Below, one piece after another: positions 19,060 through 29,033 of a stretch of 64,000 bases of DNA. Position 1 is the first letter of the stretch, and each line of letters opens with the position of its first letter. The DNA comes from Hymenobacter edaphi. Lineage in GTDB: Bacteria; Bacteroidota; Bacteroidia; Cytophagales; Hymenobacteraceae. The position numbers were made by a program, and so were the translations under genes. Under the pieces are notes generated by a model. That model was not told the origin of the DNA, did no database searches, and was given only the letters and a program-made list of their open reading frames with translations. The stretch is from positions 1,612,001-1,676,000 of the forward strand of contig NZ_QHKM01000001.1 in NCBI RefSeq assembly GCF_003258365.1, given 5' to 3'.

Positions 19060-20496
19060 CTACTCCCCGCCGTACTTGCTTTTGCCGCCGCTCCCGGCAT
19101 CCATGCGCACAATTTTGGGCAGAAACGAGCCGAGCACGTCCACCAGGTCGCGCTGGTGCTCCATCACCTGGTGAATGTCCTTGTAGGCCATCGGCGCCTC
19201 GTCGAGCCCGCCGCCGATGAGCTCCACGCCCTGGTCGCGCAGCAGGCGGCGCAGCTCCCCTTCGCTGCCCTGCTGCTTGGCCTGGGTGCGCGAGAGGCGC
19301 CGCCCCGCCCCGTGGGCGGCCGACTGAATCGAGTCCCGCTCGCCCCGCCCGCGCACGATAAAGCCCGGGGCCGTCATCGAGCCGGGAATCACGCCGAGCA
19401 CGCCCCGGCCGGCCGGCGTGGCGCCCTTGCGGTGCACCACCACCTCGCGGCCGTCGGCCAGCTCCTCTTTCCAGGCAAAGTTGTGGTGATTTTCCACCTT
19501 GGCCAGGGGCTTTTCGCCCAGGGCCTGACTGAGGCGGCGGTGAATGTCGCGGTGGCAGGCCGAGGCGTAGTCGCCGGCCAGGTTCATGGCCGCCCAGTAT
19601 TCCTGCCCTTCCTGGGTGTCGAGGTCGAGCCAGGCGAGGTAGCGGGCTTCGGGCGGCAAGGGGCAGCGGTTTATGGCCAGCTTGGTGTAGTGCTGGGCCA
19701 CGGCCGCGCCCAGGCCGCGGGAGCCGGAGTGCGAGAGCAGCCCCAGGTACGGGCCCACCGGCAGGTTCAGCTCGTTGTCCTCGGCGGTGATGTCGACCAC
19801 GCCCCACTCCACGAAGTGGTTGCCGGAGCCGGAGGAACCCAGCTGGTTGATGGCGGCCTCGCGCCGGCCGCGCACCACGGCTATTTCCTTGAACTCGGAC
19901 CGGTGCAGCACCGCATCGTCGTAGGGGTCCTTGAACACTTCCTTGCCGCCAAAGCGGGTGTGGTGGTGCAGCAGCTTTTTCAGCTCGGCGCGGCGCTGCT
20001 CCAGGTAGCGCGGCGGCACATCGAACACCGACAGGGCCATGCGGCAGCCGATGTCCATGCCCACGCCGTACGGGATGACCGCGTTGTCGACGGCCAGCAC
20101 CCCGCCGATGGGCAGGCCGTAGCCCTGGTGGGCGTCGGGCATCAGGGCCCCGTCGATGGTGATGGGCAGCTGCATGGCCGTGTCCATCTGCCGCCGGGCG
20201 CCGTCTTCGATGAAGGAGTCGCCGTAGCGGCGGTAATCCTTCACCTCGGGGCTCAGGCGCACCTCGCGGCTGGGCTGGGGCACCAGCTCCTGGGCCAGGG
20301 GGCGCCAGGTCGGGTCGCGCACGTACTTGAACGGGTCGGCTTTGATGTCGCGCAGCAACGCCAGGGCGCTGCCTTTGTCGAGGCGGCGCAGTTCGCGCTG
20401 GTCGAGGATGTCGAGGGCCAGGCTGATCTGCTTATCGTCGGTGAAGCCGAGCTGGCGCAGGTCTTTGCCGTGGAGCTTGGTGGTGTTCTTGGCCAT
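19060..20496 (-). CDS. rtcB: RtcB-family RNA ligase 1
   Basis: This is a 478-aa protein. The ATG at 20496 gives MAKNTTKLHGKDLRQLGF, matching the start of the paralog at 22799. RtcB joins RNA 2',3'-cyclic-phosphate (or 3'-P) ends to 5'-OH ends using GTP and Mn2+. Family motifs are present: GVGMDIGCRMAL (metal Cys), SGSGNHFVEW, LSHSGSRGLG, ENHHNFAW, HRKGATPAGRGVLGVIPGSM and AAHGAGR, which holds the histidine that is guanylylated. An N-terminal extension of about 90 residues (LGFTDDKQISLALDILDQREL) precedes the core and is shared with the paralog. It is the last gene of the leftward RNA-repair locus. No archease gene is visible in the window. Confidence 0.93.
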   Translation of the reverse strand: MAKNTTKLHGKDLRQLGFTDDKQISLALDILDQRELRRLDKGSALALLRDIKADPFKYVRDPTWRPLAQELVPQPSREVRLSPEVKDYRRYGDSFIEDGARRQMDTAMQLPITIDGALMPDAHQGYGLPIGGVLAVDNAVIPYGVGMDIGCRMALSVFDVPPRYLEQRRAELKKLLHHHTRFGGKEVFKDPYDDAVLHRSEFKEIAVVRGRREAAINQLGSSGSGNHFVEWGVVDITAEDNELNLPVGPYLGLLSHSGSRGLGAAVAQHYTKLAINRCPLPPEARYLAWLDLDTQEGQEYWAAMNLAGDYASACHRDIHRRLSQALGEKPLAKVENHHNFAWKEELADGREVVVHRKGATPAGRGVLGVIPGSMTAPGFIVRGRGERDSIQSAAHGAGRRLSRTQAKQQGSEGELRRLLRDQGVELIGGGLDEAPMAYKDIHQVMEHQRDLVDVLGSFLPKIVRMDAGSGGKSKYGGE

Positions 20497-20570
20497 GGGT
20501 GGTCGGGAGCAAGGATGGTAAGCGTGTAGCGCAGGGGCTGCACGGCGGGTTACGGCCGAGGTTGCGCAGA

Positions 20571-20645
20571 GTAGCGCGGGCTTTCGGCCGCGTCCGCCTG
20601 GCCGATACTGCCACCCGGGCGGACGCGGGCGGAAGCCCGCGCTAC
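20571..20645. repeat. 28-bp inverted repeat
   Basis: Left arm 20571-20598 (GTAGCGCGGGCTTTCGGCCG...) and right arm 20618-20645 are complementary over about 26 of 28 positions. It lies between rtcB 1 and the oxygenase gene. It may act as a REP-like element or an mRNA-stabilising hairpin. Confidence 0.75.
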
Positions 20646-20692
20646 ATCTGCCGCCCGTTTCCATCCTCCCGGGCACTTGCAGAGAGTGGCCT

Positions 20693-21395: not shown

Positions 21396-22799
21396 CTACG
21401 CCCCGCCGTCCATGCGCACGATTTTGGGCGTGAAGGTGCCGAGCACGTCCACCAGGTCCTGCTGGCTCTGCATCACGGTGTGGATGTCTTTGTAGGCCAT
21501 CGGCGCCTCGTCGAGGCCGCCGCCGATCAGCTCCACGCCGTGCTGCTGCAGGTGGCGGCGCACCTCGGCTTCGCCCAGCTCGGCCTTGGCCCGGGTGCGC
21601 GACATGAGGCGCCCCGCCCCGTGCGAGGCCGAGGCCAGCGACTCGGCCACCCCGCGGCCCCGCACAATAAAGCCGGGGGCCGTCATCGAGCCGGGAATCA
21701 CGCCGAGCACGCCCCGGCCGGCCGGCGTGGCGCCCTTGCGGTGCACCACTACCTCGCGGCCGTCCGAGAGGCGCTCCTTCCAGGCGAAGTTGTGGTGATT
21801 TTCCACTTTCGCCAGGGGCCGCTCGCCCAGGGCCCGGGCCACGCGCTGGTGAATCTGCTGGTGGCAGGCCGAGGCGTAGTCACCGGCCAGGTTCATGGCC
21901 GCCCAGTATTCCTGCCCGAGTTCCGAGTCCAGCGTGAGCCAGGCCAGGTGCTGGGCTTCGGCGGGCAGCTGGCAGGTTTCGCGGGCCAGCTTGGTGTAGT
22001 GCTGCGCGATGCTGGCGCCCAGGCCGCGGGAGCCGGAGTGCGAGAGCAGCCCCAGGTACGGGCCCACCGGCACCCCCATGTCGTTGGCGGGGTCGGTGAT
22101 TTCCACGATGCCGAATTCCACGAAGTGGTTGCCGGAGCCGGAGGTACCGATCTGCGCAATGGCCGATTCGTGCTTGTTGCGCAGGAAGGGAATGGCGGCG
22201 AATTCGTCGCGCTCCAGCACTTCGTGGCCCAGTTTCTGGCCGTGGCGAAACACGTCGCGGTTGCCGAACTTGGTGGTCGTCAGCAGCACGCCTCGCAGCT
22301 CCTGCACCCGCTGGGCGAGGTACTGGGGCGGCAGCGCGAAGATGCTCAGGGCCATGCGGCAGCCGATGTCGACGCCCACCGCGTACGGGATGACGGCGTT
22401 ATCCGTGGCCAGCACCCCGCCGATGGGCAGGCCGTAGCCGTGGTGGGCGTCGGGCATCAGGGCGCCGGCCACCGTCACGGGCAGCTTCATGGCCGTTTCC
22501 ATCTGGTGAATGGCGCCCGGCTCGATGTGCTCGGCGCCGTAGAGCACGTAGTCTTTGCGCGGCGCCAGGGCAATGTGGCGGCTGGGCGGGGGCAGCAGGG
22601 CCGCCGCGGTATGGCTCCAGTCGAGGTCGGTGAGGAAGTTGTTGGGAGTCTGCAGAATCAGCTTGAGCAGCGCCAGCTGATCGGTGTGCGAGAGGCGCTT
22701 GAGGTGTTTGCGCTGCAGCTGGGCCAGCGCCAGCCCGATGGCGCGACCTTCCGGGAAACCCAGTTGACGAAGGTCGTTGCCGCGTAATTGATTGGCCAT
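21396..22799 (-). CDS. rtcB: RtcB-family RNA ligase 2
   Basis: This 467-aa paralog of the 19060-20496 gene has the same N-terminal extension (MANQLRGNDLRQLGFPEGRA) and all catalytic blocks: VGVDIGCRMAL, SGSGNHFVEF, LSHSGSRGLG, VENHHNFAWKE, RKGATPAGRGVLG and ASHGAGR with the nucleotidyl-accepting His. It directly follows the Y RNA-like array on the same strand, so array and ligase may be cotranscribed. Its leader contains a perfect GCGCCCC-T-GGGGCGC palindrome (22811-22825) that resembles the leader hairpin of the PcfJ-like gene. Two ligases in one locus suggest different RNA targets or conditions. Confidence 0.93.
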   Translation of the reverse strand: MANQLRGNDLRQLGFPEGRAIGLALAQLQRKHLKRLSHTDQLALLKLILQTPNNFLTDLDWSHTAAALLPPPSRHIALAPRKDYVLYGAEHIEPGAIHQMETAMKLPVTVAGALMPDAHHGYGLPIGGVLATDNAVIPYAVGVDIGCRMALSIFALPPQYLAQRVQELRGVLLTTTKFGNRDVFRHGQKLGHEVLERDEFAAIPFLRNKHESAIAQIGTSGSGNHFVEFGIVEITDPANDMGVPVGPYLGLLSHSGSRGLGASIAQHYTKLARETCQLPAEAQHLAWLTLDSELGQEYWAAMNLAGDYASACHQQIHQRVARALGERPLAKVENHHNFAWKERLSDGREVVVHRKGATPAGRGVLGVIPGSMTAPGFIVRGRGVAESLASASHGAGRLMSRTRAKAELGEAEVRRHLQQHGVELIGGGLDEAPMAYKDIHTVMQSQQDLVDVLGTFTPKIVRMDGGA

Positions 22800-22810
22800 G
22801 ATGGTGGGTG

Positions 22811-22825
22811 CGCCCCTGGGGCGCG
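22811..22825 (-). promoter_or_regulatory. Leader hairpin of rtcB 2
   Basis: GCGCCCC-T-GGGGCGC is a perfect 7-bp stem 12 nt upstream of the start codon, followed by CACCCACCATC. The PcfJ-like gene at the head of the locus has a comparable hairpin (27734-27748) in the same place. Shared leaders suggest common translational control. Confidence 0.5.
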
Positions 22826-22883
22826 GTGAGTTGGAGAAAAAGCGCGGCCGACGGCTCGCGCGGCATGGTTGTCCCCCTCAAGA

Positions 22884-22980
22884 GCCGGAGCAACAGGACG
22901 GCCCGCGTACCATGGGATACACCTTGCGGCGTACTGCCCGACGTGACAGGTCGAAGTAACGCGGACCTACGGCATCCGGC
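22884..22980 (-). ncRNA. Y RNA-like unit U9 (short form)
   Basis: The outer stem pairs GCCGGA (22980-22975) with UCCGGC. The conserved 5' motif is AUGCCGUAG and the upper stem GGUCCGCGU/ACGCGGGCC is 9 bp and perfect. UUACUUCG follows. The inner part lacks T- and D-arms and instead has a 7-bp hairpin capped by GCAA (GUACGCC/GGUGUAU). The 3' motif reads UGUUGCUCC. Confidence 0.65.
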
Positions 22981-22990
22981 CGTGGGAGCG

Positions 22991-23080
22991 GGTGGTATCG
23001 GGCAAGGGTTACGGGTGAGCAGCTTCAGATTCAATTTTCAGTCGAAGGAATGCTGCCCGACGACACCTTGCCCGTCCCAC
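22991..23080 (-). ncRNA. Y RNA-like unit U8 (short form)
   Basis: The outer stem CGGGCAAGG/CCUUGCCCG is perfect (9 bp), with a further GUGG/CCAC pair outside. The 5' motif is GGUGUCGUC. The upper stem GGGCAGC/GCUGCUC is extended by UUC/GAA. AUUCCUUCG is present. There is no tRNA-like module, only a small AU-rich loop, so this looks like a minimal Y RNA. Confidence 0.65.
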
Positions 23081-23090
23081 ATTCATTTTA

Positions 23091-23228
23091 GATTGGGCTA
23101 CGGGGCGCGCCGCCCTCGATAACACTGCGCCCTAACCACTAGGCCACCGTTCCTGGCGGAAACGGGAAGGATTCGAACCTCCGACCTCAGTATCCCTGAC
23201 GAAGTATGGCGGCGCTACGGCACCAATC
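23091..23228 (-). ncRNA. Y RNA-like unit U7 with full tRNA-like module
   Basis: The outer stem is GAUUGG/CCAAUC. The motif GGUGCCGUAG precedes a perfect 8-bp upper stem GCGCCGCC/GGCGGCGC (23208-23215 with 23107-23114). The T-arm is GGAGG-UUCGAAU-CCUUC (23166-23182). The acceptor-like stem CCGUUUC/GGAACGG is 7 bp and capped by CGCCA, which looks like a retained 3' CCA joined to the 5' end. The D-arm is canonical (GUGGCCUAGUGGUUAGGGC, 23129-23147). Confidence 0.8.
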
Positions 23229-23238
23229 AAAAAACCAG

Positions 23239-23393
23239 CTGCTTACCGGGGCAACCAGCGGCGGGCGTTGCTGACGCCGCTCCTTGCGGACCGGACGTCT
23301 ACCGGCCGCCGAAGCAGCCGGGTGAAGGAATTGAACCTACTCAACGAAAACGTCTTACCGAAGTAACGCCCGCCTACGACACCCGGTAGGCAG
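23239..23393 (-). ncRNA. Y RNA-like unit U6
   Basis: The outer stem CUGCCUACCGGG/CCCGGUAAGCAG pairs at 11 of 12 positions and a U run follows soon after (A6 at 23229-23234 on +), like an intrinsic terminator. The upper stem GGCGGGCGUU/AACGCCCGCC is 10 bp and perfect. The T-arm is GUAGG-UUCAAUU-CCUUC. The acceptor-like stem CCGGCUGC/GCGGCCGG is capped by UUCG (23302-23321). The D-arm is atypical. Confidence 0.78.
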
Positions 23394-23404
23394 TAAGAAA
23401 AAAA

Positions 23405-23542
23405 CCGTTGGGGCAACGGGGCGCCCAGCCCGTTTCCTGCTCTAACCAACTGAGCTACCGCCTCCGAAGAAGCGAGAGGGACTCGAACCCCCGACCCGGG
23501 CATTAAAAGTGCGAAGTAGGGCTGCGCTACGGCACCCAACGG
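23405..23542 (-). ncRNA. Y RNA-like unit U5 with full tRNA-like module and terminator
   Basis: The outer stem CCGUUGGG/CCCAACGG (23535-23542 with 23405-23412) is perfect and followed by seven U (A7 at 23398-23404 on +). The upper stem is GCGCAGCCC with GGGCUGGGCGC. The T-arm is GGGGG-UUCGAGU-CCCUC (23476-23492). The acceptor stem CGCUUC/GAGGCG is capped by UUCG (23459-23474). The D-arm GUAGCUCAGUUGGUUAGAGC (23439-23458) is that of a normal tRNA. A GCA-CUUUUAA-UGC hairpin before the T-arm resembles a Lys-type anticodon loop. Confidence 0.82.
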
Positions 23543-23550
23543 CAAAGTCA

Positions 23551-23691
23551 ACCCGAGGCAACCACGGCCCAGCCACGAGTCTGCCCTACCGCTCGTAAGC
23601 GCAGGCCCGGCAAGCCGGCCCCACTTCGGGAGTCGAACCCGCGACAGAACTCTAAGTTGGCACGAAGGATGGCTGAGCTACGGCGCTCGGT
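23551..23691 (-). ncRNA. Y RNA-like unit U4
   Basis: The outer stem is ACCGAG with CUCGGGU. The 5' motif is GCGCCGUAG, where U-to-C keeps pairing with the 3' GUUGCC. The upper stem CUCAGCCA/UGGCUGGG is 8 bp. The T-arm is GCGGG-UUCGACU-CCCGA (23626-23642). The acceptor-like hairpin GGCCGG-CUUG-CCGGGCC follows. A D-arm-like segment contains GGUA. Confidence 0.75.
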
Positions 23692-23700
23692 ACGGCTGCT

Positions 23701-23870
23701 TTATCGGGCAAGAGCGAGGCAACAAACGGGGCGCCCTTTATCACTGGCGCGTCTTCGTTTCGCCACCGGCGGCCCTTGCGGGCGGCCGGGCGGGACTTGA
23801 ACCCGCACGCCTTGCGGCACCAGTCCCTAGCGAAGGAATGCGCTCCTACGGCACCCGCCTGGCCCGATAA
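23701..23870 (-). ncRNA. Y RNA-like unit U3 with Leu-type variable arm
   Basis: The outer stem UUAUCGGGC/GCCCGAUAA is perfect (9 bp). The upper stem is GGAGCGC/GCGCCCC with one A.C mismatch. A GCC-GCAA-GGC hairpin before the T-arm resembles the long variable arm of tRNA-Leu. The T-arm is GCGGG-UUCAAGU-CCCGC (23790-23806). The acceptor-like stem is capped by a GCAA tetraloop. The 3' motif is UGUUGCCUCG. Confidence 0.78.
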
Positions 23871-23878
23871 TGAACAAT

Positions 23879-24030
23879 CCGCCGGGGTAAAAAAGCAACA
23901 AGCGTAACGTGCGGCTGAGTAGCCGTTCTGCTCTACCCGCTGAGCTATTTCCGGCGGCGGTAATCTGCAGCCCGGAAAACAAGATTCGAACTTGTGACCC
24001 GAAGTAACGCTGGTCTACGACACCCGGCGG
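23879..24030 (-). ncRNA. Y RNA-like unit U2 with full tRNA-like module
   Basis: The outer stem CCGCCGGG/CCCGGCGG is perfect. The motif GGUGUCGUAG precedes an upper stem AGCGUUAC/GUUACGCU with one U.U. The T-arm ACAAG-UUCGAAU-CUUGU is a perfect 5-bp stem with a canonical loop (23979-23995). The acceptor stem UUUCCGG/CCGGAAA is 7 bp with a 17-nt cap. The D-arm UAGCUCAGCGGGUAGAGCA (23929-23947) is canonical. Confidence 0.82.
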
Positions 24031-24037
24031 GGTGGTG

Positions 24038-24203
24038 GGCAGTTCTTGGCAACAACAGCCAGGGCAATGGGCGCAGCGCGTTTATTTTCCTGCCGATGCC
24101 AAAGCACCGGCGCGGGATTCGAACCCGAAGCGGCCCGTGGGGCCACCCGAAACAGCCACGAAGTAACGCCCCGCTACGGCACCTGGCTAGCCGTCGAGAA
24201 CAG
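24038..24203 (-). ncRNA. Y RNA-like unit U1 (first full unit after Ro60)
   Basis: The motif GGUGCCGUAG precedes the upper stem GCGGGGCGUU/AACGCGCUGC (one mismatch; 24165-24174 with 24073-24082). There is an extra GUGGCCC-CAC-GGGCCGC hairpin. The T-arm is CGGG-UUCGAAU-CCCG. The acceptor-like stem GCCGGUGC/GCAUCGGC is 8 bp and capped by UUUG (24092-24111). Only 9 nt follow before the upper stem closes, so there is no D-arm. Confidence 0.75.
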
Positions 24204-24581
24204 TGAGGTTGTTTAGGTGAGCTTCATGAAAGTACAGCGCTTAAAAAGTGAAGGAGCAAATGCCTCCGCGCACCTCAGCGGGCCGGAAACAGCCCCGAGT
24301 TCCTGCCCCGGCGCGTTGGCGTCCGCCGGCCGGTAGCGCAGGCTGCCGTAATGGGCAGCGTGTTGCCGAGCCCTCGGTAGTCGCCGCCCGACCAAAGGCG
24401 GGCGGGTAACGGCCCGTTTGCGGGGCATCGAGGGGCGGCGGGCCAGGTGTTGACGCGGTTCGCGGTTTATTGGGGCAGGCGTGAAATCGGGGTTCCGGAC
24501 GCGGGGCGCGGCGGCCCTGTTGCCGCCGCGCCGTACCGCTTGGGGGTTGCGGGTGTGAGTTTGGAATCAGAAGGAAAAATG
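24204..24581. other. Spacer between array units U1 and U0
   Basis: No convincing gene is seen. On the minus strand there are strong hairpins: GGCGCGGCGGC/GCCGCCGCGCC (about 24505-24532), CGCCCG/CGGGCG around 24385-24405 and CUGCC/GGCAG near 24340. A 71-codon frame (24213-24428) has no initiation signal or family resemblance. The stretch may be a structured leader or promoter for the array. Confidence 0.4.
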
Positions 24582-24674
24582 GGCCGTAAAGCAGCGCACG
24601 CGCATCAGCTGGCGGAATCGGGTAGCGAAGGAATGTGGGGTAACGATGGGCACTAATCAGGCTGCTTTACGGCC
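24582..24674 (-). ncRNA. Y RNA-like unit U0, just downstream of the Ro60 gene
   Basis: A perfect 14-bp outer stem (GGCCGTAAAGCAGC, 24661-24674 with 24582-24595) is followed by CATTTTT on the minus strand. The inner stem UGCCCAUC/GAUGCGCG and an AUUCCUUCG motif match the short units U8 and U9. It lies 14 bp after the Ro60 stop and may double as its transcription terminator. Confidence 0.6.
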
Positions 24675-24687
24675 TGGGGTCAAGTAG

Positions 24688-26217
24688 TTAGAAGTCGATC
24701 CGCTCCATCTCCGTCAGGGCCGAGCCGCCGTTTTCCAGGGCCTGGAGCACGTCGAAGACTTTGTCAGACCAGCCGGCAATGAGCGCCACGCCGTCCGGCT
24801 CGCGCACGTCCAGCGGGGTATTGCCGTGGCCGGCCAGGTCGAACAGGTACAGGCGGGCCTGGGGCGCCACGGTGCGGCGGTACTGGCGCCAGGCCTTGGC
24901 CAGGTCGTTGCCGTCGCCGGTGCTGTTCCAGAGCTGGCAGTCGGTGAACATCATCACCTTGTCCACCCGCTCGTTGTGGCGGATCAAATCCTGCACCACC
25001 AGGTGGCCGTTGGTGCTGTAGCCCACCTCGCCTTCGCGACGGTACAGCTCCTGCACGTTGCTCAGCACCTGGTTCTGGGGCAGCGGCACGCGCTTCCACC
25101 GGTCGCCGAACATGCCGGTCACCACGTTCTGGCAGCGGCGCTGCAAGAGCATCCCCAGCACCAGGCCCACGTCGTAGAGCAGCACTTTGCTGCGCGGCGA
25201 AATGGGTTGCTGCATGGAGCCCGACACGTCGCAGGCCACCACCACGCGGGTGTCGGCGCCGAAGCCGCGCAGGTTCTGCGTGGAGTGCCCGATGGCCGTT
25301 TCCAGCGCCGCGAGGATGCCCGCCACGTGGCCGGAGCGCACCGTGAGCAATTCGCGGTAAGCTGCCAGGTAGCGGAAGGGCAGCTGCTTGCTGCGCGTCA
25401 CCGCCCGCTCGTCGGTCAGGGCCTGCGTGAGCTGCGCAATGGCCCCGGCCGATACGTCGGCTTCGAGGATGTTGCGCAGGTTGCGCAGCAAAGCCATGTA
25501 GCCCAGCTTGCCGCTGCCGATCAGCTCCTCCCACTTCTGGCAGAAGGCCGTCTGCCGCTCCGCATCCGTGGTAAAGGTTTGCTGGCCCAGGGCCGACAGC
25601 TCGGTTTCCCAGGTGTAGGGCGTGGGCAGCTCGCCGCGCACCAGCTGGTCGAACAGCTGCTGCTGCTCGGGCGTTTTGGCCTGGGGGTGCACCAGGAACA
25701 GGGCGTCGCGCAGGCGCACCTGCCCGGCCCGGTCGTACTTGGCCAGCTGGTAGCCATCGAAGCGGTTGAAGGCCAGGGCCAGCCCTTTCTGCAGCTGCTT
25801 GGAGAGGCGGTTCAGCTGCTTCTGCCCCTGGCGCTGGTTGGCCAGGGCGTAGAAGGCCAGCAGCTCGGTAATCTCGTCGGCACGCTGCACCACGCGGGCC
25901 ACCAGGCGGCTCACCAGGTTGTCGCCGCGGTGCAGGCGGGCCAGCTCCACGGCCAGTACCAGCGGCACGGTGCGCAGGTACATCTTTTCGCGGGCGTACA
26001 CGGCCAGCTGCGCCACGAACAGGGGGTCGTTTTTGGCCACCAGCTCGCGCAGGCGCTGCAGGCGGGTATCGGCTTTTTCGTAGAACTGGTCGCTGAGCGC
26101 GGCCGTGGCCACGGCGGCGTACAGCTCCAGCTGGGGCGTAAGGGAGTAGGCAGCCGCGCCCGCGTGGTTCACCACGTCGGCCGGCTTGTTTTTGCGGAAT
26201 CCGAAGTTGAAGCGCAT
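24688..26217 (-). CDS. rsr: Ro60/Rsr ortholog (TROVE and vWA domains)
   Basis: This 509-aa protein starts at the ATG at 26217 (MRFNFGFRKNK). Residues 20-320 are HEAT-like helical repeats of the TROVE domain (ELYAAVATAALSDQFYEKADTR, LFVAQLAVYAREKMYLRTVP). This domain forms the RNA-binding ring. Residues 325-509 are a vWA domain with an intact MIDAS (D330-V-S332-G-S334) and MMFTDCQLW. Bacterial Rsr binds Y RNAs and can tether them to nucleases such as PNPase. It acts in RNA quality control and stress survival. In Salmonella, rsr lies with Y RNA genes and rtcBA. Here it is followed on the same strand by the Y RNA-like array and rtcB. A long hairpin (26275-26351) lies upstream. Confidence 0.95.
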   Translation of the reverse strand: MRFNFGFRKNKPADVVNHAGAAAYSLTPQLELYAAVATAALSDQFYEKADTRLQRLRELVAKNDPLFVAQLAVYAREKMYLRTVPLVLAVELARLHRGDNLVSRLVARVVQRADEITELLAFYALANQRQGQKQLNRLSKQLQKGLALAFNRFDGYQLAKYDRAGQVRLRDALFLVHPQAKTPEQQQLFDQLVRGELPTPYTWETELSALGQQTFTTDAERQTAFCQKWEELIGSGKLGYMALLRNLRNILEADVSAGAIAQLTQALTDERAVTRSKQLPFRYLAAYRELLTVRSGHVAGILAALETAIGHSTQNLRGFGADTRVVVACDVSGSMQQPISPRSKVLLYDVGLVLGMLLQRRCQNVVTGMFGDRWKRVPLPQNQVLSNVQELYRREGEVGYSTNGHLVVQDLIRHNERVDKVMMFTDCQLWNSTGDGNDLAKAWRQYRRTVAPQARLYLFDLAGHGNTPLDVREPDGVALIAGWSDKVFDVLQALENGGSALTEMERIDF

Positions 26218-26274
26218 AAAAGTGGTGAGATAGTGAGGTGGTGAACTGGTGCGTTTTCGGGGCCCGCATTCGGG

Positions 26275-26351
26275 CGAAGCGGGGCATTCCGCTGGCCGAC
26301 AGTCTTCCCGTTCTGTCAGCCGGCAACCTTGCACGGAATGCCCCGGCTTCG
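26275..26351 (-). ncRNA. Long structured hairpin between the PcfJ-like gene and rsr
   Basis: Outer arms CGAAGC(C)GGGGCATTCCG (26334-26351) and CGGAATGCCCCGCTTCG (26275-26291) pair over 17 bp with one bulge. Inner arms GGCUGACAG/CUGUCGGCC add 9 bp. It could be a further non-coding RNA, a processing site or an attenuator in the leader of rsr. It lacks the conserved motifs of the array units. Confidence 0.5.
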
Positions 26352-26422
26352 TCCGGTAGGCGGTATGAGTTCGTGGTCGGAGCGGTGGCGCTATTCCGGC
26401 CAAAGCCGACGGCCCCGCGCCC

Positions 26423-27724
26423 CTACACGTGCTTGGAAATGGTCAGGCGGGCGTCGGTAGCCCAACGCTGCACCCACAGCCGCTCAGAGGCGTCCATGGG
26501 CCGGTTGTGCTTGCCCCGGGCCTGCACGATGACGCCGCCGGCCGCTACTTCCAGGGTGACGGCGCGCAGGCCGGCCTGGGTAAGGCCGAAGATGGCGCAG
26601 CGCCCCTGGCGGCAGGAGCTCAGGTACGAGGCCACGCAGTGGTGCAGCTCGCGGCCTTCCTCCAGCAGCGCCCCGTAGGTGAGCAGCTGGGTGATGAGCA
26701 CCGGGTTCTTCTTGCTGTTGTTCGTGAAATTGGGCACCGGCATGGGCGTCCAGGTGGTCGTGAGCGGAATGACGGGACCGGGGGCGTAGCGGCGCACCTG
26801 GGCCAGCTGGCGGTGCCACTGCTCCGTCTGAGCCAGTACACTCACCATCGAGCGGCCTTTCAGCGAGAAACCCGGCTGGGCCGGCTCGTCGCCGATGCCC
26901 ACGCTGCGCTTCTCGTGAATCCAGTCGCAGACGGGCCCGAAGTGGCGCGGGTCCACCATCGGCGCGGCCACGAAAAAGTCCACCACCGTCAGCCAGAAGG
27001 CGTCGTCGGGACCGATTTCGCGGCCCATCCGCGACTCCAGCACCGCCCCGAACCAGGCCAGCGCGTCGCGGGCGGCGAGCTGGGCGTAGCGCAGGGCTTC
27101 CAGGAAGGTGCAGCCCGCCGGCGCCAGGCGCAGGTGGTGCTCCAGCTTCTTGGTGAGCGGCACCGGCAGGCCCTGGAAGCGGCGCAGCGCGTGGCCGCTG
27201 CCCAGGTGCAGGGTCAGCTCGGCGATGTTCACGCCGCCGTCCTGCAGGCGCCCGGCCGTCCAGGAGTTGAGCAGCCAGCCGGGCACGTCGCCGTACTCAT
27301 CAAAGAGGTGGCGCACCAGGCTTTCCAGCTGCCGGTACACGTTGCGGGAGCGGGGCTGCCAGTCGGCCAGCTCGCGCCGGCGCAGGGGGTAGTAGTGGGT
27401 GAGGGCGGCCACGGCGGCGCTGACTTCGGGGCGCTGCAGCAGCTCGGTGCGCTTGGCGGCCAGGGCCAGCAGCACCTGCTGGCGGCGCTGGCGCTCGGCC
27501 CCGTTCTGGCCGTACACGCAGCCCTCGTAGAGCTTGGCCAGCGGGGTTTCTTCGCCGAGCAGGTTGTAGCAGTGCCGTGGTTCGCCGGTGAGCGAAAACA
27601 GGTAGTCGATCTGCCGGCTGGGGGCCCACTTGCGCCAGTCGGTGCGGCGGGCCTGGGTGAGGGCGGCTACGGCTTGCTGGGCGCGCTGGGCTTCGTAGGA
27701 TAGGGGTTTGAGGCGGTTGGCCAT
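26423..27724 (-). CDS. PcfJ-like domain protein
   Basis: This 433-aa protein starts at the ATG at 27724. The C-terminal third carries the PcfJ signature: EGRELHHCVASYLSSCRQGRCAIF, with LHHC-V and a Cys, then VTLEV and VIVQARGKHNRP. The N-terminal 300 residues are helical and of unknown fold. PcfJ-like domains are named after a conjugative plasmid protein, occur widely in mobile and conflict-related loci and lack an assigned activity. The gene is first in the leftward locus and sits 205 bp before rsr. Its start codon lies in a hairpin (27723-27759). A role with Ro60 or the array RNAs is inferred only from position. Confidence 0.75.
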   Translation of the reverse strand: MANRLKPLSYEAQRAQQAVAALTQARRTDWRKWAPSRQIDYLFSLTGEPRHCYNLLGEETPLAKLYEGCVYGQNGAERQRRQQVLLALAAKRTELLQRPEVSAAVAALTHYYPLRRRELADWQPRSRNVYRQLESLVRHLFDEYGDVPGWLLNSWTAGRLQDGGVNIAELTLHLGSGHALRRFQGLPVPLTKKLEHHLRLAPAGCTFLEALRYAQLAARDALAWFGAVLESRMGREIGPDDAFWLTVVDFFVAAPMVDPRHFGPVCDWIHEKRSVGIGDEPAQPGFSLKGRSMVSVLAQTEQWHRQLAQVRRYAPGPVIPLTTTWTPMPVPNFTNNSKKNPVLITQLLTYGALLEEGRELHHCVASYLSSCRQGRCAIFGLTQAGLRAVTLEVAAGGVIVQARGKHNRPMDASERLWVQRWATDARLTISKHV

Positions 27725-27759
27725 CGGTCGGGGTGCCCCTCGCGGGGGCGGTTACCGAT
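27723..27759 (-). promoter_or_regulatory. Hairpin enclosing the start codon of the PcfJ-like gene
   Basis: ATCGGT (27754-27759, minus) pairs with ACCGAT (27723-27728), which overlaps the ATG. An inner GCCCC/GGGGC stem (27734-27748) resembles the leader palindrome of rtcB 2. This could hide the ribosome entry site. Confidence 0.45.
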
Positions 27760-28182
27760 TGAAGAATCAGACTTGGAATGCGCCGGAGCGGCGGAGAGTT
27801 GAAGCAGAAGTCTGAACGATTCGTACATGGCGGTGCTTGGCAAAAGGGTGTAAAATTCCGTTCGGCAATTCACGCGGAATTAATTGCCGTTACGCAGGTA
27901 TTTATTACAGAAATAATTCAGGCAATATTTTCCCAGGCGACATTTATTTAGTCGCAAAACCAGGAATTAATTACCGTGAATCAGGCCCGACTGGAAAGCA
28001 CTCGGGCGGTGGCCAGGGTCGTTAGCAGCCGCGTTTTCGCGGCGCTGTATCCGGGCAACTGGCCGGCCTGATGACGCCCTGCCACAGCGGCGCGGGCACC
28101 GATAAGCGGGCAACGAGGCGGGGCTGGGGTTGAGGGGCCGACATCATGGCGGTAACGAGTTAGAAGAGCTATGAGTAAAAAC
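27725..28182. other. Region upstream of the RNA-repair locus
   Basis: It is AT-richer than its surroundings between about 27850 and 27980, with short hairpins (GCGAC-ATTTATTTA-GTCGC near 27937 and GCCGCG-TTTT-CGCGGC near 28030). This is the likely promoter and regulatory zone of the leftward locus. I searched for a sigma-54 -24/-12 pair, as used by the enterobacterial rtc operon. The best candidate (GG-N9-GC) has wrong spacing. No gene is supported. Confidence 0.4.
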
Positions 28183-28216
28183 AAAACGCCCGAATCTGGT
28201 GGGATTCGGGCGTTTT
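28183..28216 (-). terminator. Terminator of the small leftward gene
   Basis: A perfect 14-bp stem (AAAACGCCCGAATC and its complement) is followed on the minus strand by TTTTGTTTTTAC. It lies 28 bp after the stop of the 29-aa ORF and before the promoter zone of the RNA-repair locus. Confidence 0.85.
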
Positions 28217-28243
28217 GCAGGATGAGCTTCTATCGAAAGAGCT

Positions 28244-28333
28244 TCACTCCGTTGCGTGCGCGCCGAACCCCGGCTGGACCTTATCCTCCGAGCTGGTTGG
28301 CATACCTAGGTATTGATTAAAGTGGCGGCGCAT
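28244..28333 (-). CDS. Possible 29-aa small protein
   Basis: The ORF (MRRHFNQYLGMPTSSEDKVQ..., ending GAHATE) starts at the ATG at 28333. It has the complete set of expression signals: an upstream TACCTTTG -7 box (28382-28389), an A-rich leader (CAAAACAACAAACGACAAAAC) typical of Bacteroidota mRNAs, and a strong terminator after the stop. There is no signal peptide or membrane segment. The function is unknown. The transcript might instead be a non-coding RNA of about 190 nt. Confidence 0.5.
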   Translation of the reverse strand: MRRHFNQYLGMPTSSEDKVQPGFGAHATE

Positions 28334-28381
28334 GACGAGTGAAGTCGTTTTGTCGTTTGTTGTTTTGGGCTTTGAACGGGT

Positions 28382-28389
28382 CAAAGGTA
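28382..28389 (-). promoter_or_regulatory. -7 box TACCTTTG of the small leftward gene
   Basis: This is an exact TAnnTTTG match on the minus strand, with ATTG-type -33 candidates 16 and 21 nt upstream. A 16-bp imperfect palindrome (TTGATGAAA...TTTCATCAA, 28417-28450) lies just upstream and could bind a regulator. Confidence 0.5.
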
Positions 28390-28637
28390 GAAAGGTTATT
28401 TCGCACAATGCAATAGTTGATGAAATTTTTTTGAAAAAAAGTTTCATCAATTTTACCAAACCTTATTCCGAGCTAAATAGCCGCGGTTGCACTTCTTTAT
28501 TCAGAATAATTCGGGCCGTAATTTCTTTAATTAATTATTCCCGCCACGGCTATGATACACCCTGAAATCCTCACCACACCTACCCGGCTGCGCTGCCGAG
28601 GCCCGCAAATCCGCCGCAGCCGGTGAATCTTTGGCGC

Positions 28638-29033
28638 ATGATCGACAAAGTAGCATGGCTGCACTGGCAGGGCGGCCGCATTCTGAGCACCCGCAGCCGG
28701 GGCAAGGACCGGTTTTACTTTCCCGGCGGCAAGCGCGAGGCCGGCGAAACCGACGCGCAAACCCTGCTGCGCGAAATCGAGGAAGAGCTGACCGTGCACC
28801 TGCGGTCCGACAGCCTGCGCTACCTCGGCACCTTCGAGGCGCAGGCGCACGGCCATGCGCCCGGTGTGCTCGTGCGTATGATTTGCTACGCGGCCGCGTA
28901 CACGGGCACGCTGCGGCCCGCCAACGAAATCGAGGAAATCACCTGGCTCAGCTACCAGGACCGCCCCCGCGTGTCGGCCGTCGACCAGCTGATTTTCGAC
29001 TGGCTGCGCGGGCAGGGCCTGCTGGCTGATTGA
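28638..29033 (+). CDS. NUDIX hydrolase
   Basis: This 131-aa protein starts at ATG 28638; an in-frame GTG at 28623 is the alternative. The Nudix box is complete: GGKREAGET ... REIEEEL (GX5EX7REUXEEXXU pattern), which binds Mg2+ for cleavage of nucleoside-diphosphate-X substrates. The fold start (KVAWLHWQGGRILSTRS) and VRMICYAAAYTG strands are typical. The substrate cannot be assigned. An AATCTTTG box lies directly before the ATG, so the mRNA could be leaderless. It is followed by the HDAC-like gene, 69 bp away. Confidence 0.88.
   Translation: MIDKVAWLHWQGGRILSTRSRGKDRFYFPGGKREAGETDAQTLLREIEEELTVHLRSDSLRYLGTFEAQAHGHAPGVLVRMICYAAAYTGTLRPANEIEEITWLSYQDRPRVSAVDQLIFDWLRGQGLLAD

Follow-up and report, generated by a model that had tools for sequence, protein, structure and literature searches.

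The Salmonella rsr-yrlBA-rtcBA operon contains two Y RNAs, as its name also indicates, and in D. radiodurans several small RNAs lie upstream of rsr. The bacterial Y RNAs described in the sections of PMC8394870 drawn on here mimic the D, T and acceptor arms of tRNA; in other bacteria, according to the same sections, the basal stem binds Rsr and the tRNA-like domain binds PNPase, with modification by DusA and TruB. Damaged tRNAs regulate the Salmonella operon, as stated in parts of PMC7790460 and also of PMC8394870. In the portion of PMC7790460 used here, Hughes et al. raise the possibility that YrlA competitively inhibits a tRNA nuclease. YrlA is reportedly uncut by the anticodon nuclease in Salmonella (same portion of PMC7790460), which, as far as that text goes, fits an inhibitor and not a sacrificial substrate.

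We analyzed an array of Y RNA-like units in Hymenobacter edaphi, located between a Ro60 gene and an RNA ligase gene. Judged from sequence, many of these units mimic a circularly permuted tRNA and carry an anticodon stem-loop just after a conserved CUUCG, a feature missed by an earlier note on this DNA. The array would represent a set of tRNA look-alikes, with other anticodons in relatives and phages, that may lure tRNA-cutting enzymes. In the part of the literature that our search covered, bacterial Y RNAs with anticodon loops or in large arrays did not come up, although an earlier mention is possible.

Organization of the Ro60–RtcB locus

The array was assigned by the earlier note to the interval between Ro60 and RtcB genes, and Pfam matches confirm that it is flanked by ro60 (TROVE and vWA domains) and rtcB1. 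The flanking features are as follows:

19060-20676, minus strand: RtcB2 RNA ligase (PF01139, 8e-78; ORF as listed, with a GTG start)
21396-22799, minus strand: RtcB1 RNA ligase (PF01139, 5.6e-83)
24688-26274, minus strand: Ro60 orthologue, TROVE and vWA (PF05731, 1.5e-28; PF25045, 4.2e-11)
26423-27724, minus strand: PcfJ-like protein, upstream of ro60 (PF14284, 2.4e-13)
28382-28413, minus strand: Bacteroidota-type promoter match

Ro60, the Y units and RtcB are thus adjacent, as in an RNA repair operon, and RtcB is found downstream of the array in 75 of 87 Hymenobacteraceae ro60 loci. A Pfam scan of eight neighboring proteins identified neither RtcA nor RtcR among them. The promoter match, TTG-N21-TAnnTTTG, which we take to be the Bacteroidota promoter motif, is the sole match on the minus strand in 22700-29000. 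Signals for individual units were not apparent: the interval 22700-27800 contains no sigma-70 promoter match (0.3 expected) and four terminator-like sites, against 4.8 expected for intrinsic terminators.

The PcfJ-like protein was considered as a nuclease or toxin and rejected as such, its AlphaFold model (pLDDT 72) having no match in the PDB at E ≤ 0.001. Its C-terminal part gave just weak GNAT-like matches (E 0.3 or more), which are not evidence, and PADLOC reported nothing for this protein.

Nine Y RNA-like units

Nine tandem units, U1 to U9, lie between ro60 and rtcB1, all of them on the minus strand. Bit scores refer to R1, our covariance model of the U5 type, and core denotes the position of the 5' core:

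24054-24194, minus strand: U1, with a T arm and a long variable-type arm (47.0 bits; core at 24183)
23877-24035, minus strand: U2, T arm, acceptor, D arm and anticodon-like arm (57.7 bits, alignment to own tRNAs; core at 24024)
23709-23864, minus strand: U3, predicted permuted tRNA-Leu(UAG) mimic including a class II variable arm (51.0 bits; core at 23855)
23548-23698, minus strand: U4, with a T arm (42.7 bits; core at 23687)
23403-23547, minus strand: U5, predicted permuted Lys(UUU) mimic with anticodon, T, acceptor and D arms (131.2 bits, U5 being in the seed, and RNAalifold; core at 23536)
23500-23512, minus strand: U5 anticodon stem-loop GCA-CUUUUAA-UGC, with the loop of the organism's own tRNA-Lys(UUU)
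23241-23394, minus strand: U6, with a T arm (52.7 bits; core at 23383)
23087-23235, minus strand: U7, permuted T-acceptor-D module (81.9 bits; core at 23224)
22998-23078, minus strand: U8, short, without T or D arm (core and fold; missed by R1 at E ≤ 0.01; core at 23067)
23032-23044, minus strand: U8 anticodon stem-loop CGA-CUGAAAA-UUG, with one G-U pair and the loop of own tRNA-Phe(GAA)
22880-22987, minus strand: U9, short, without T or D arm (30.6 bits, E 9.4e-6; core at 22976)
22940-22952, minus strand: U9 anticodon stem-loop GAC-CUGUCAC-GUC, with the loop of own tRNA-Asp(GUC)

R1 recovers eight of the nine units at E ≤ 0.01, U8 being the exception. The earlier note had counted about ten units; nine are real, but its partial match U0 is unsupported. 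The region 24674-24207 has UUCCUUCG standing alone at 24633, with no 5' core within two substitutions and no R1 match, and folding of 24690-24570 and 24470-24330 yielded only a 14-bp hairpin. The motifs proposed for the units were found in U1 to U9 but are more variable than had been described. The 5' core takes the forms AGCGCCGUAG in U4, GGUGUCGUCG in U8 and GAUGCCGUAG in U9, and UWACUUCG is replaced by UUCCUUCG in U3 and U8, AUCCUUCG in U4, CUACUUCG in U5 and AUACUUCG in U7. The 3' motif reads GUUGCC in U3 to U6, GUUGCU in U2 and U9, AUUGCC in U1, GUAGCC in U7 and GUAACC in U8.

Unit architecture and covariation

In the structure derived from sequence, a basal stem containing a conserved internal loop is followed in each unit by an upper stem of some 8 bp and then by a module. 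The fullest type of module is a predicted circularly permuted tRNA, consisting of an anticodon arm, a variable region, a T arm, an acceptor stem closed by a hairpin, and a D arm. The permuted T arm, acceptor and D arm on a basal stem are present in the U5 type and absent from U8 and U9. Of 559 units, 424 have a T-arm-like sequence, compared with 34 once shuffled, and the order T then D is found by motif in 209 of the 559. The acceptor is a hairpin, in place of the open acceptor and 3' CCA of a functional tRNA, and ARAGORN called no tRNA gene in the window (the whole stretch of DNA analyzed, 64,000 nt).

Pairing of the upper and outer stems within each unit, as previously proposed, was borne out. 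Upper stems form 7–8 of 8 pairs in 307 of 557 units, where about 34 would be expected with shuffled partners, and outer stems average 7.12 of 8 pairs compared with 5.97 after shuffling (maximum 6.05). The covariation check gave the same result: in an alignment of 38 U5-type sequences, 95.7% of cells pair and 206 cells show double changes, against 63.8 in shuffles (0/500). Because the units covary, the mechanically listed ORFs overlapping the array were set aside, and with them a protein-coding explanation.

Anticodon loops in the units

The anticodon loops are the most informative property of the units. In 75 of 557 units, from 51 of the 87 loci, an exact anticodon loop of an H. edaphi tRNA, enclosed by a 3-bp stem, lies at a fixed slot 2–4 nt into CUUCG, the tRNAs of the H. 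edaphi genome serving as the reference for all 87 loci. Shuffles gave a mean of 0.24 and a maximum of 3 in 200, and a second set of 200 a mean of 0.14 and a maximum of 1 unit. These matches comprise 12 different loops in 70 distinct contexts. In the other 482 units the slot does not hold an exact copy of an own anticodon loop, which counts against a role as decoys; many variant loops (for example UUUCCAU and UUUGCUU) have no equal among the tRNA loops of H. edaphi, the only species whose tRNAs were compared. ARAGORN, which is blind to the anticodon idea, called 27 Y units in the 87 loci as tRNAs, 21 of them with the slot anticodon; for annotation, this means that some Y units get called tRNA genes.

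Within the H. edaphi array, U3 aligns to own tRNA-Leu with a score of 75 (best non-Leu tRNA, 37), and Lys is the best own tRNA for U5 (63 versus 53). The body of U2 is nearest to tRNA-Gly among own tRNAs, with a weak margin. The Asp loop of U9 recurs in 23 Hymenobacteraceae units. No clear tRNA identity was found for U1, U4, U6 and U7 of this array, which also counts against decoys; a likely orthologue of U4, L019_4, has a His anticodon loop. A canonical anticodon loop is absent from the slot of H. edaphi U7, and units similar to it in other species carry Pro-like loops, the slot assignment being our own reading.

A tRNA identity extending through the whole body of every unit was rejected. Both halves of the module point to one isotype in 48 of 332 units (25.2 expected), and agreement is significant for Leu (18 versus 7 expected) and Ser (11 versus 2.6) only. 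As the excess comes mainly from these two, we claim no body-based tRNA identity outside Leu and Ser.

Anticodon turnover and distribution

Within one slot, the predicted anticodon is variable across species, and the remainder of the unit less so. The slot GCR-N7-YGC is represented by 58 units from 55 loci with 23 loops, of which 54 units have U33 and 57 have A or G at position 37. Mean entropy is 1.04 bits at positions 34–36 versus 0.29 for the remaining 35 columns; individual columns away from the anticodon reach up to 1.24 bits, which counts against the decoy reading. Across 22 non-overlapping close pairs, loops change at 21 of 154 sites and flanks at 114 of 1809, and the anticodon differs in 11 pairs and is the same in 11, the sites not being independent. 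U5 and its counterpart in H. jeollabukensis, L016_4, are identical over the 65 nt after the arm, and their loops are Lys and Gln, respectively. On the Ro60 tree, the 62 loci scored require at least 31 anticodon changes.

The 87 Hymenobacteraceae ro60 loci contain 564 5' cores (about 25 expected by chance), with 3–10 matches in each locus. An exact core is present in 102 of 103 TROVE-positive and 3 of 101 TROVE-negative Hymenobacteraceae genomes, and upper-stem sequence tracks several units through the genus Hymenobacter. The earlier note had described a Y RNA amplified into a library; the units do form a diverse, Y RNA-like set, but local amplification at the H. edaphi locus was not supported. 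Since units can be traced through the genus and every locus has 3–10 cores, the set looks ancient and seems to have been maintained as a repertoire. The unit design recurs in other Bacteroidota, and R1 identified Y arrays beside TROVE in phage CcrColossus and other viral contigs.

A possible role for the array

We tentatively propose, at somewhat below even chances, that Ro60 carries a repertoire of decoys for enzymes that recognize or cleave anticodon loops, encoded beside an RtcB ligase. The units would be transcribed as one precursor from a promoter that precedes the PcfJ-like gene, and would then be cut apart. Ro60 would hold the basal stem, leaving the anticodon arm (or the long variable arm, in units of Leu and Ser type) exposed to enzymes specific for certain tRNAs, the likeliest being anticodon nucleases that belong to toxins, phages or rivals. 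A permuted RNA without a free CCA end should escape charging and translation, and can therefore act as a decoy. The adjacently encoded RtcB would mend cut tRNAs or decoys, and the fast anticodon change would be the mark of an arms race over the choice of tRNA to attack. More speculatively, bacteria and phages might keep an adaptable anticodon-decoy library on Ro60, akin to an immune repertoire built from modular RNA. Its variable region would then be the anticodon arm, swapped among units and among species so as to follow the tRNAs hit by anticodon nucleases.

An ordinary Y RNA function, in which the tRNA-like module would serve as a tether from Ro60 to PNPase or as the gate of its ring, is unlikely but deserves serious weight. 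The anticodon arm would be a convenient stable tRNA-like fold recruiting tRNA-modifying enzymes, and several units would serve several effector partners. The Rsr and PNPase binding and the DusA and TruB modification described in the cited sections of PMC8394870 agree with such a function, as does the frequency of T-arm-like sequence. It leaves unexplained the exact tRNA anticodon loops, their change within a more constant module, and U8 and U9, which have an anticodon arm yet no T or D arm.

The identity elements used by aminoacyl-tRNA synthetases include the anticodon loops of Lys, Asp, Asn, Phe, Pro, Glu, Gln and His tRNAs and the variable arm of Ser and Leu tRNAs. The units show anticodon loops, and those of Leu and Ser type retain their variable arm, as would suit mimics that titrate or recruit other anticodon readers, chiefly synthetases or anticodon-modifying enzymes, and so adjust translation or tRNA modification under stress. 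We regard this as rather improbable: host synthetases change slowly, which makes anticodon turnover between close species hard to explain, and phage carriage would need a separate reason.

Less probable still is a tripwire, in which an invader's nuclease cuts the anticodon arm, the Ro60 complex opens or is activated, and RtcB reseals the RNA and resets the system. The downstream RtcB in most loci and the regulation of the Salmonella operon by damaged tRNAs (PMC7790460 and PMC8394870, in the parts cited) speak for it; against it, Salmonella YrlA is uncut according to the same part of PMC7790460, and no such regulator is present among the eight neighboring proteins scanned. Least probable of all are relics, modules captured from tRNA genes whose loops are merely inherited and have no function: the extended similarity of some units to one tRNA (U3 to tRNA-Leu, L119_6 to tRNA-Asn, both long near-matches) and the Asp loop kept by the last unit in many loci fit this, but the arm stems are unlike those of real tRNAs (for Lys, GCA/UGC in the unit versus GUACA/UGUAC), the anticodon changes within a module that is more constant, and both U33 and purine 37 are conserved.

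A Y RNA with a nameable anticodon leads to testable predictions as to which tRNA, and hence which nuclease or enzyme, each unit concerns. If true, the decoy proposal would link Ro60, a human autoantigen, to the conflict between bacteria and phages, and would give a reason for phages to carry TROVE and Y RNAs.

Comparison with known systems

Non-tRNA molecules that mimic tRNA include tmRNA and the tRNA-like structures of plant viruses, which keep a chargeable acceptor end, whereas a hairpin loop closes the acceptor in the H. edaphi units. The array shares with YrlA (RF02553) the linkage to Ro60/Rsr, the basal stem and the permuted T arm, acceptor hairpin and D arm. The comparison with YrlA models suggested earlier gave sub-threshold matches for U5 (35.8 bits, E 5.1e-5), U2 (27.8) and U7 (26.5), against a gathering cut-off of 69, and genome-wide RF02553 had no match over the cut-off. 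The Rfam consensus has AUGCUU where the H. edaphi units have UACUUCG, and its structure does not contain the anticodon stem-loop; the array further differs in its nine different units and in the class II variable arms of Leu and Ser types.

Jumbo-phage TROVE loci, named an RNA repair platform in the portion of PMC7824862 consulted, similarly combine a ROT/TROVE protein with a tRNA-like partner; that portion mentions neither arrays nor anticodon loops. The Salmonella rsr-yrlBA-rtcBA operon, as presented in the cited part of PMC7790460, likewise brings together a Ro60 orthologue, Y RNAs and RtcB, and the H. edaphi locus differs from it in having nine Y units, two RtcB genes and a PcfJ-like gene.

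Gene order and extent of the array

On the minus strand of the window, a PcfJ-like gene is followed by ro60, the Y array, rtcB1, a gene for a 2OG-Fe(II) oxygenase, and rtcB2. About ten tandem units had been proposed in the earlier note. Nine of them, U1–U9, contain the conserved 5' motif of each unit (the core), whereas the tenth, U0, consists only of a 14-bp hairpin, perhaps a terminator or a degenerate unit.

Features of the window locus
24183, 24024, 23855, 23687, 23536, 23383, 23224, 23067, 22976; minus strand; cores of U1 to U9 in order, from the core pattern search
24585-24679; minus strand; 14-bp hairpin GGCCGUAAAGCAGC/GCUGCUUUACGGCC (U0), directly 3' of ro60
26423-27724; minus strand; PcfJ-like gene, upstream of ro60

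The genome measures 6.0 Mb (contig G000:C11), and the closest named relatives of its ro60 are from Hymenobacter (H. jeollabukensis, 89%; Hymenobacter sp. CRA2, 90%) in a search that may omit records very close to the window. A long inverted repeat lies by the rtcB2 start (20570-20651), with sub-threshold Rfam matches to mir-H3 (30.6 bits) and P35 (21.8 bits). The genome also holds a third RtcB-family match about 95 kb away (G000:C11:1537916-1538584).

Conservation across Hymenobacteraceae

The gene order is conserved within the family. We read ro60 loci from 86 of the 102 other family genomes with a match to TROVE, the domain of Ro60 orthologues, making 87 of 103 with the window. The PcfJ-like gene adjoins ro60 in many, not all, of the family loci, and is placed between the Y units and rtcB in L051, L096, L119, and L122; the C-terminal part of its product gives weak GNAT-like matches that are not significant. 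Allowing at most one substitution per core half, we found 564 core matches in the stretch from ro60 to rtcB, limited to 4.5 kb where no rtcB follows, with 3–10 per locus and a median spacing of 156 nt. Given the background of the pattern over the 988 kb (139 reverse-strand matches and 87 forward ones elsewhere) and the 177 kb held by these intervals, chance may account for about 25 of them. Counted by reading two tables, an exact core occurs in 102 of the 103 TROVE-positive genomes, the exception being G138, and in 3 of the 101 TROVE-negative ones (G045, G061, and G100), where it may represent orphan Y RNAs or assembly gaps. A reversed-pattern control had no match among the genomes listed.

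Covariation and fold of the units

Covariation supports the RNA structure and bears out the covarying stems of the earlier note. In an alignment of 38 U5-type units, 23 of 44 pairs show double changes, and 95.7% of paired cells are complementary, compared with 83.5% after shuffling and 45.5% at most when partners are slid by 1–3 columns. Upper arms form 7–8 of 8 pairs in 307 of 557 units, where about 34 would be expected. Run on this alignment, RNAalifold places inside the upper stem a 7-nt loop on a 3-bp stem that ACUU/AGGU pairs lengthen, a T arm whose loop reads UUCGANU, a 9-bp acceptor stem capped by a loop of variable sequence, and a D arm of 4 bp. Pairing of the 3-bp/7-nt arm is partly selected, since the sequences were picked by requiring it. 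The anticodon arm for the most part, and the D arm throughout, are invariant and give no covariation signal. The module is a permuted tRNA carrying an anticodon arm. Against 42 distinct tRNA sequences of the window's genome (from 46 Rfam matches), U3 scores 75 with tRNA-Leu(UAG), where no tRNA of another isotype exceeds 37; for U5 the score is 63 with tRNA-Lys and 53 with the next best.

Anticodon mimicry

Many units mimic tRNA anticodon loops at a fixed slot, starting 2–4 nt into the conserved CUUCG. Comparing only positions 32–38 of the tRNAs of the window's genome (39 loops), we found that 75 of 557 units, spread over 51 of 87 loci, hold an exact loop closed by a 3-bp stem there; two sets of 200 module shuffles gave means of 0.24 (maximum 3 matches) and 0.14 (maximum 1 unit). 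The loops include Lys, Asp, Phe, Pro, Asn, Trp, Gln, His, Leu, and Glu, and those of the window are Lys (U5), Phe (U8), and Asp (U9). Ten further units carry the Lys(CUU) loop CUCUUAA, which is absent from the reference set. Of the Y units in the 87 loci, ARAGORN annotated 27 as tRNA genes and gave 21 of these the anticodon of the slot. Deeper in the module, at offsets of 6 or more, 20 exact loops were found versus 2.8 after shuffling, among them 8 Asn loops at offsets 17–18 and 7 Pro-type AUGGGGU loops at 11. These Asn(GUU) loops belong to unit L119_6 and seven similar family units; the 17-nt arm of L119_6, comprising the whole 5-bp arm, is identical to that of tRNA-Asn from the window's genome and is perhaps a recent capture.

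The mimicry changes between species. At slots of the form GCR-N7-YGC, 58 units of 55 loci carry 23 different loops, with U33 conserved in 54 and A or G37 in 57. Mean entropy is 1.04 bits at positions 34–36 versus 0.29 over 35 other columns, single ones of which reach 1.24. Among 22 non-overlapping close pairs, the difference is 0.136 at loop sites versus 0.063 in flanks (Fisher p 0.0013, with non-independent sites), and anticodons are unlike in 11 and alike in 11. U5 and L016_4, a unit of H. jeollabukensis, are identical over the 65 nt that follow the arm and span the variable region, T arm, acceptor, and D arm, but their loops are Lys and Gln, respectively. On a FastTree phylogeny of 87 Ro60 proteins, one slot scored in 62 loci shows 16 anticodon states and at least 31 changes, some of which may reflect paralogy, as the first candidate unit was used where a locus had several.

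Other Bacteroidota and phages

Core matches lie 3' of ro60 in Flavobacterium, Saprospiraceae, Cesiribacter, Chitinophaga, a Prevotella MAG, and others, their number ranging from 1–2 to 7 per locus (26 loci read with the tolerant pattern, stray matches included). Among 104 dereplicated exact-core units from 45 Bacteroidota loci outside the family, the slot holds an exact tRNA loop of the window's genome in 6, compared with 0.06 expected, and a YU-NNN-R loop in 13. In Flavobacterium, one unit reads GCA-CUUUCAC-UGC, which ARAGORN likewise assigns to Glu(UUC).

Core matches occur in 54 stretches of viral contigs, many lacking a T arm and chance-like as judged by eye. Of 61 dereplicated viral cores, 12 have YU-NNN-R loops and 3 exact loops of the window's genome (0.02 expected), two of these being one unit in two related phages. 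R1, a covariance model from the U5-type alignment, gave 90 matches at E ≤ 0.01 on 40 chosen sources and none in four presumed chance-match controls (L308, L312, L319, and L325). Six successive matches lie upstream of TROVE in phage CcrColossus (L353 2802-3914), and others in the TROVE-bearing viral contigs L301, L303, L311, L318, L320, L322, L345, and L349. The GenBank tRNA-Gln of CcrColossus (D866_gt024, L353 3128-3195) sits within a Y unit of this array and is probably not a tRNA gene.

Proposed function and relation to known Y RNAs

All units would be transcribed as one precursor, since a search of 22700-27800 gave no sigma-70-like site and the single promoter match of Bacteroidota type precedes the PcfJ-like gene. 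Ro60 would bind the units, which may then serve as decoys. The exact loops, their fast replacement, the company of RtcB, the carriage by phages, and the fact that U8 and U9 consist of little beyond an anticodon arm are best explained by a decoy role towards enzymes that recognize anticodon loops. A literature search, with the field's main papers outside its reach, returned no publication on anticodon arms in Y RNAs.

Among other possibilities, Hughes et al. mention that YrlA might competitively inhibit an anticodon nuclease (PMC7790460), and a jumbo-phage survey describes TROVE and its tRNA-like partner as an RNA-repair platform (PMC7824862); the anticodon loops add the identity of the tRNA that a given RNA imitates. 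The window units share a common building plan with Rfam YrlA, which matches U5 (35.8 bits), U2 (27.8), and U7 (26.5), but all below the cut-off of 69, so they stay outside that family. The array units are a novel variant of bacterial Y RNA.
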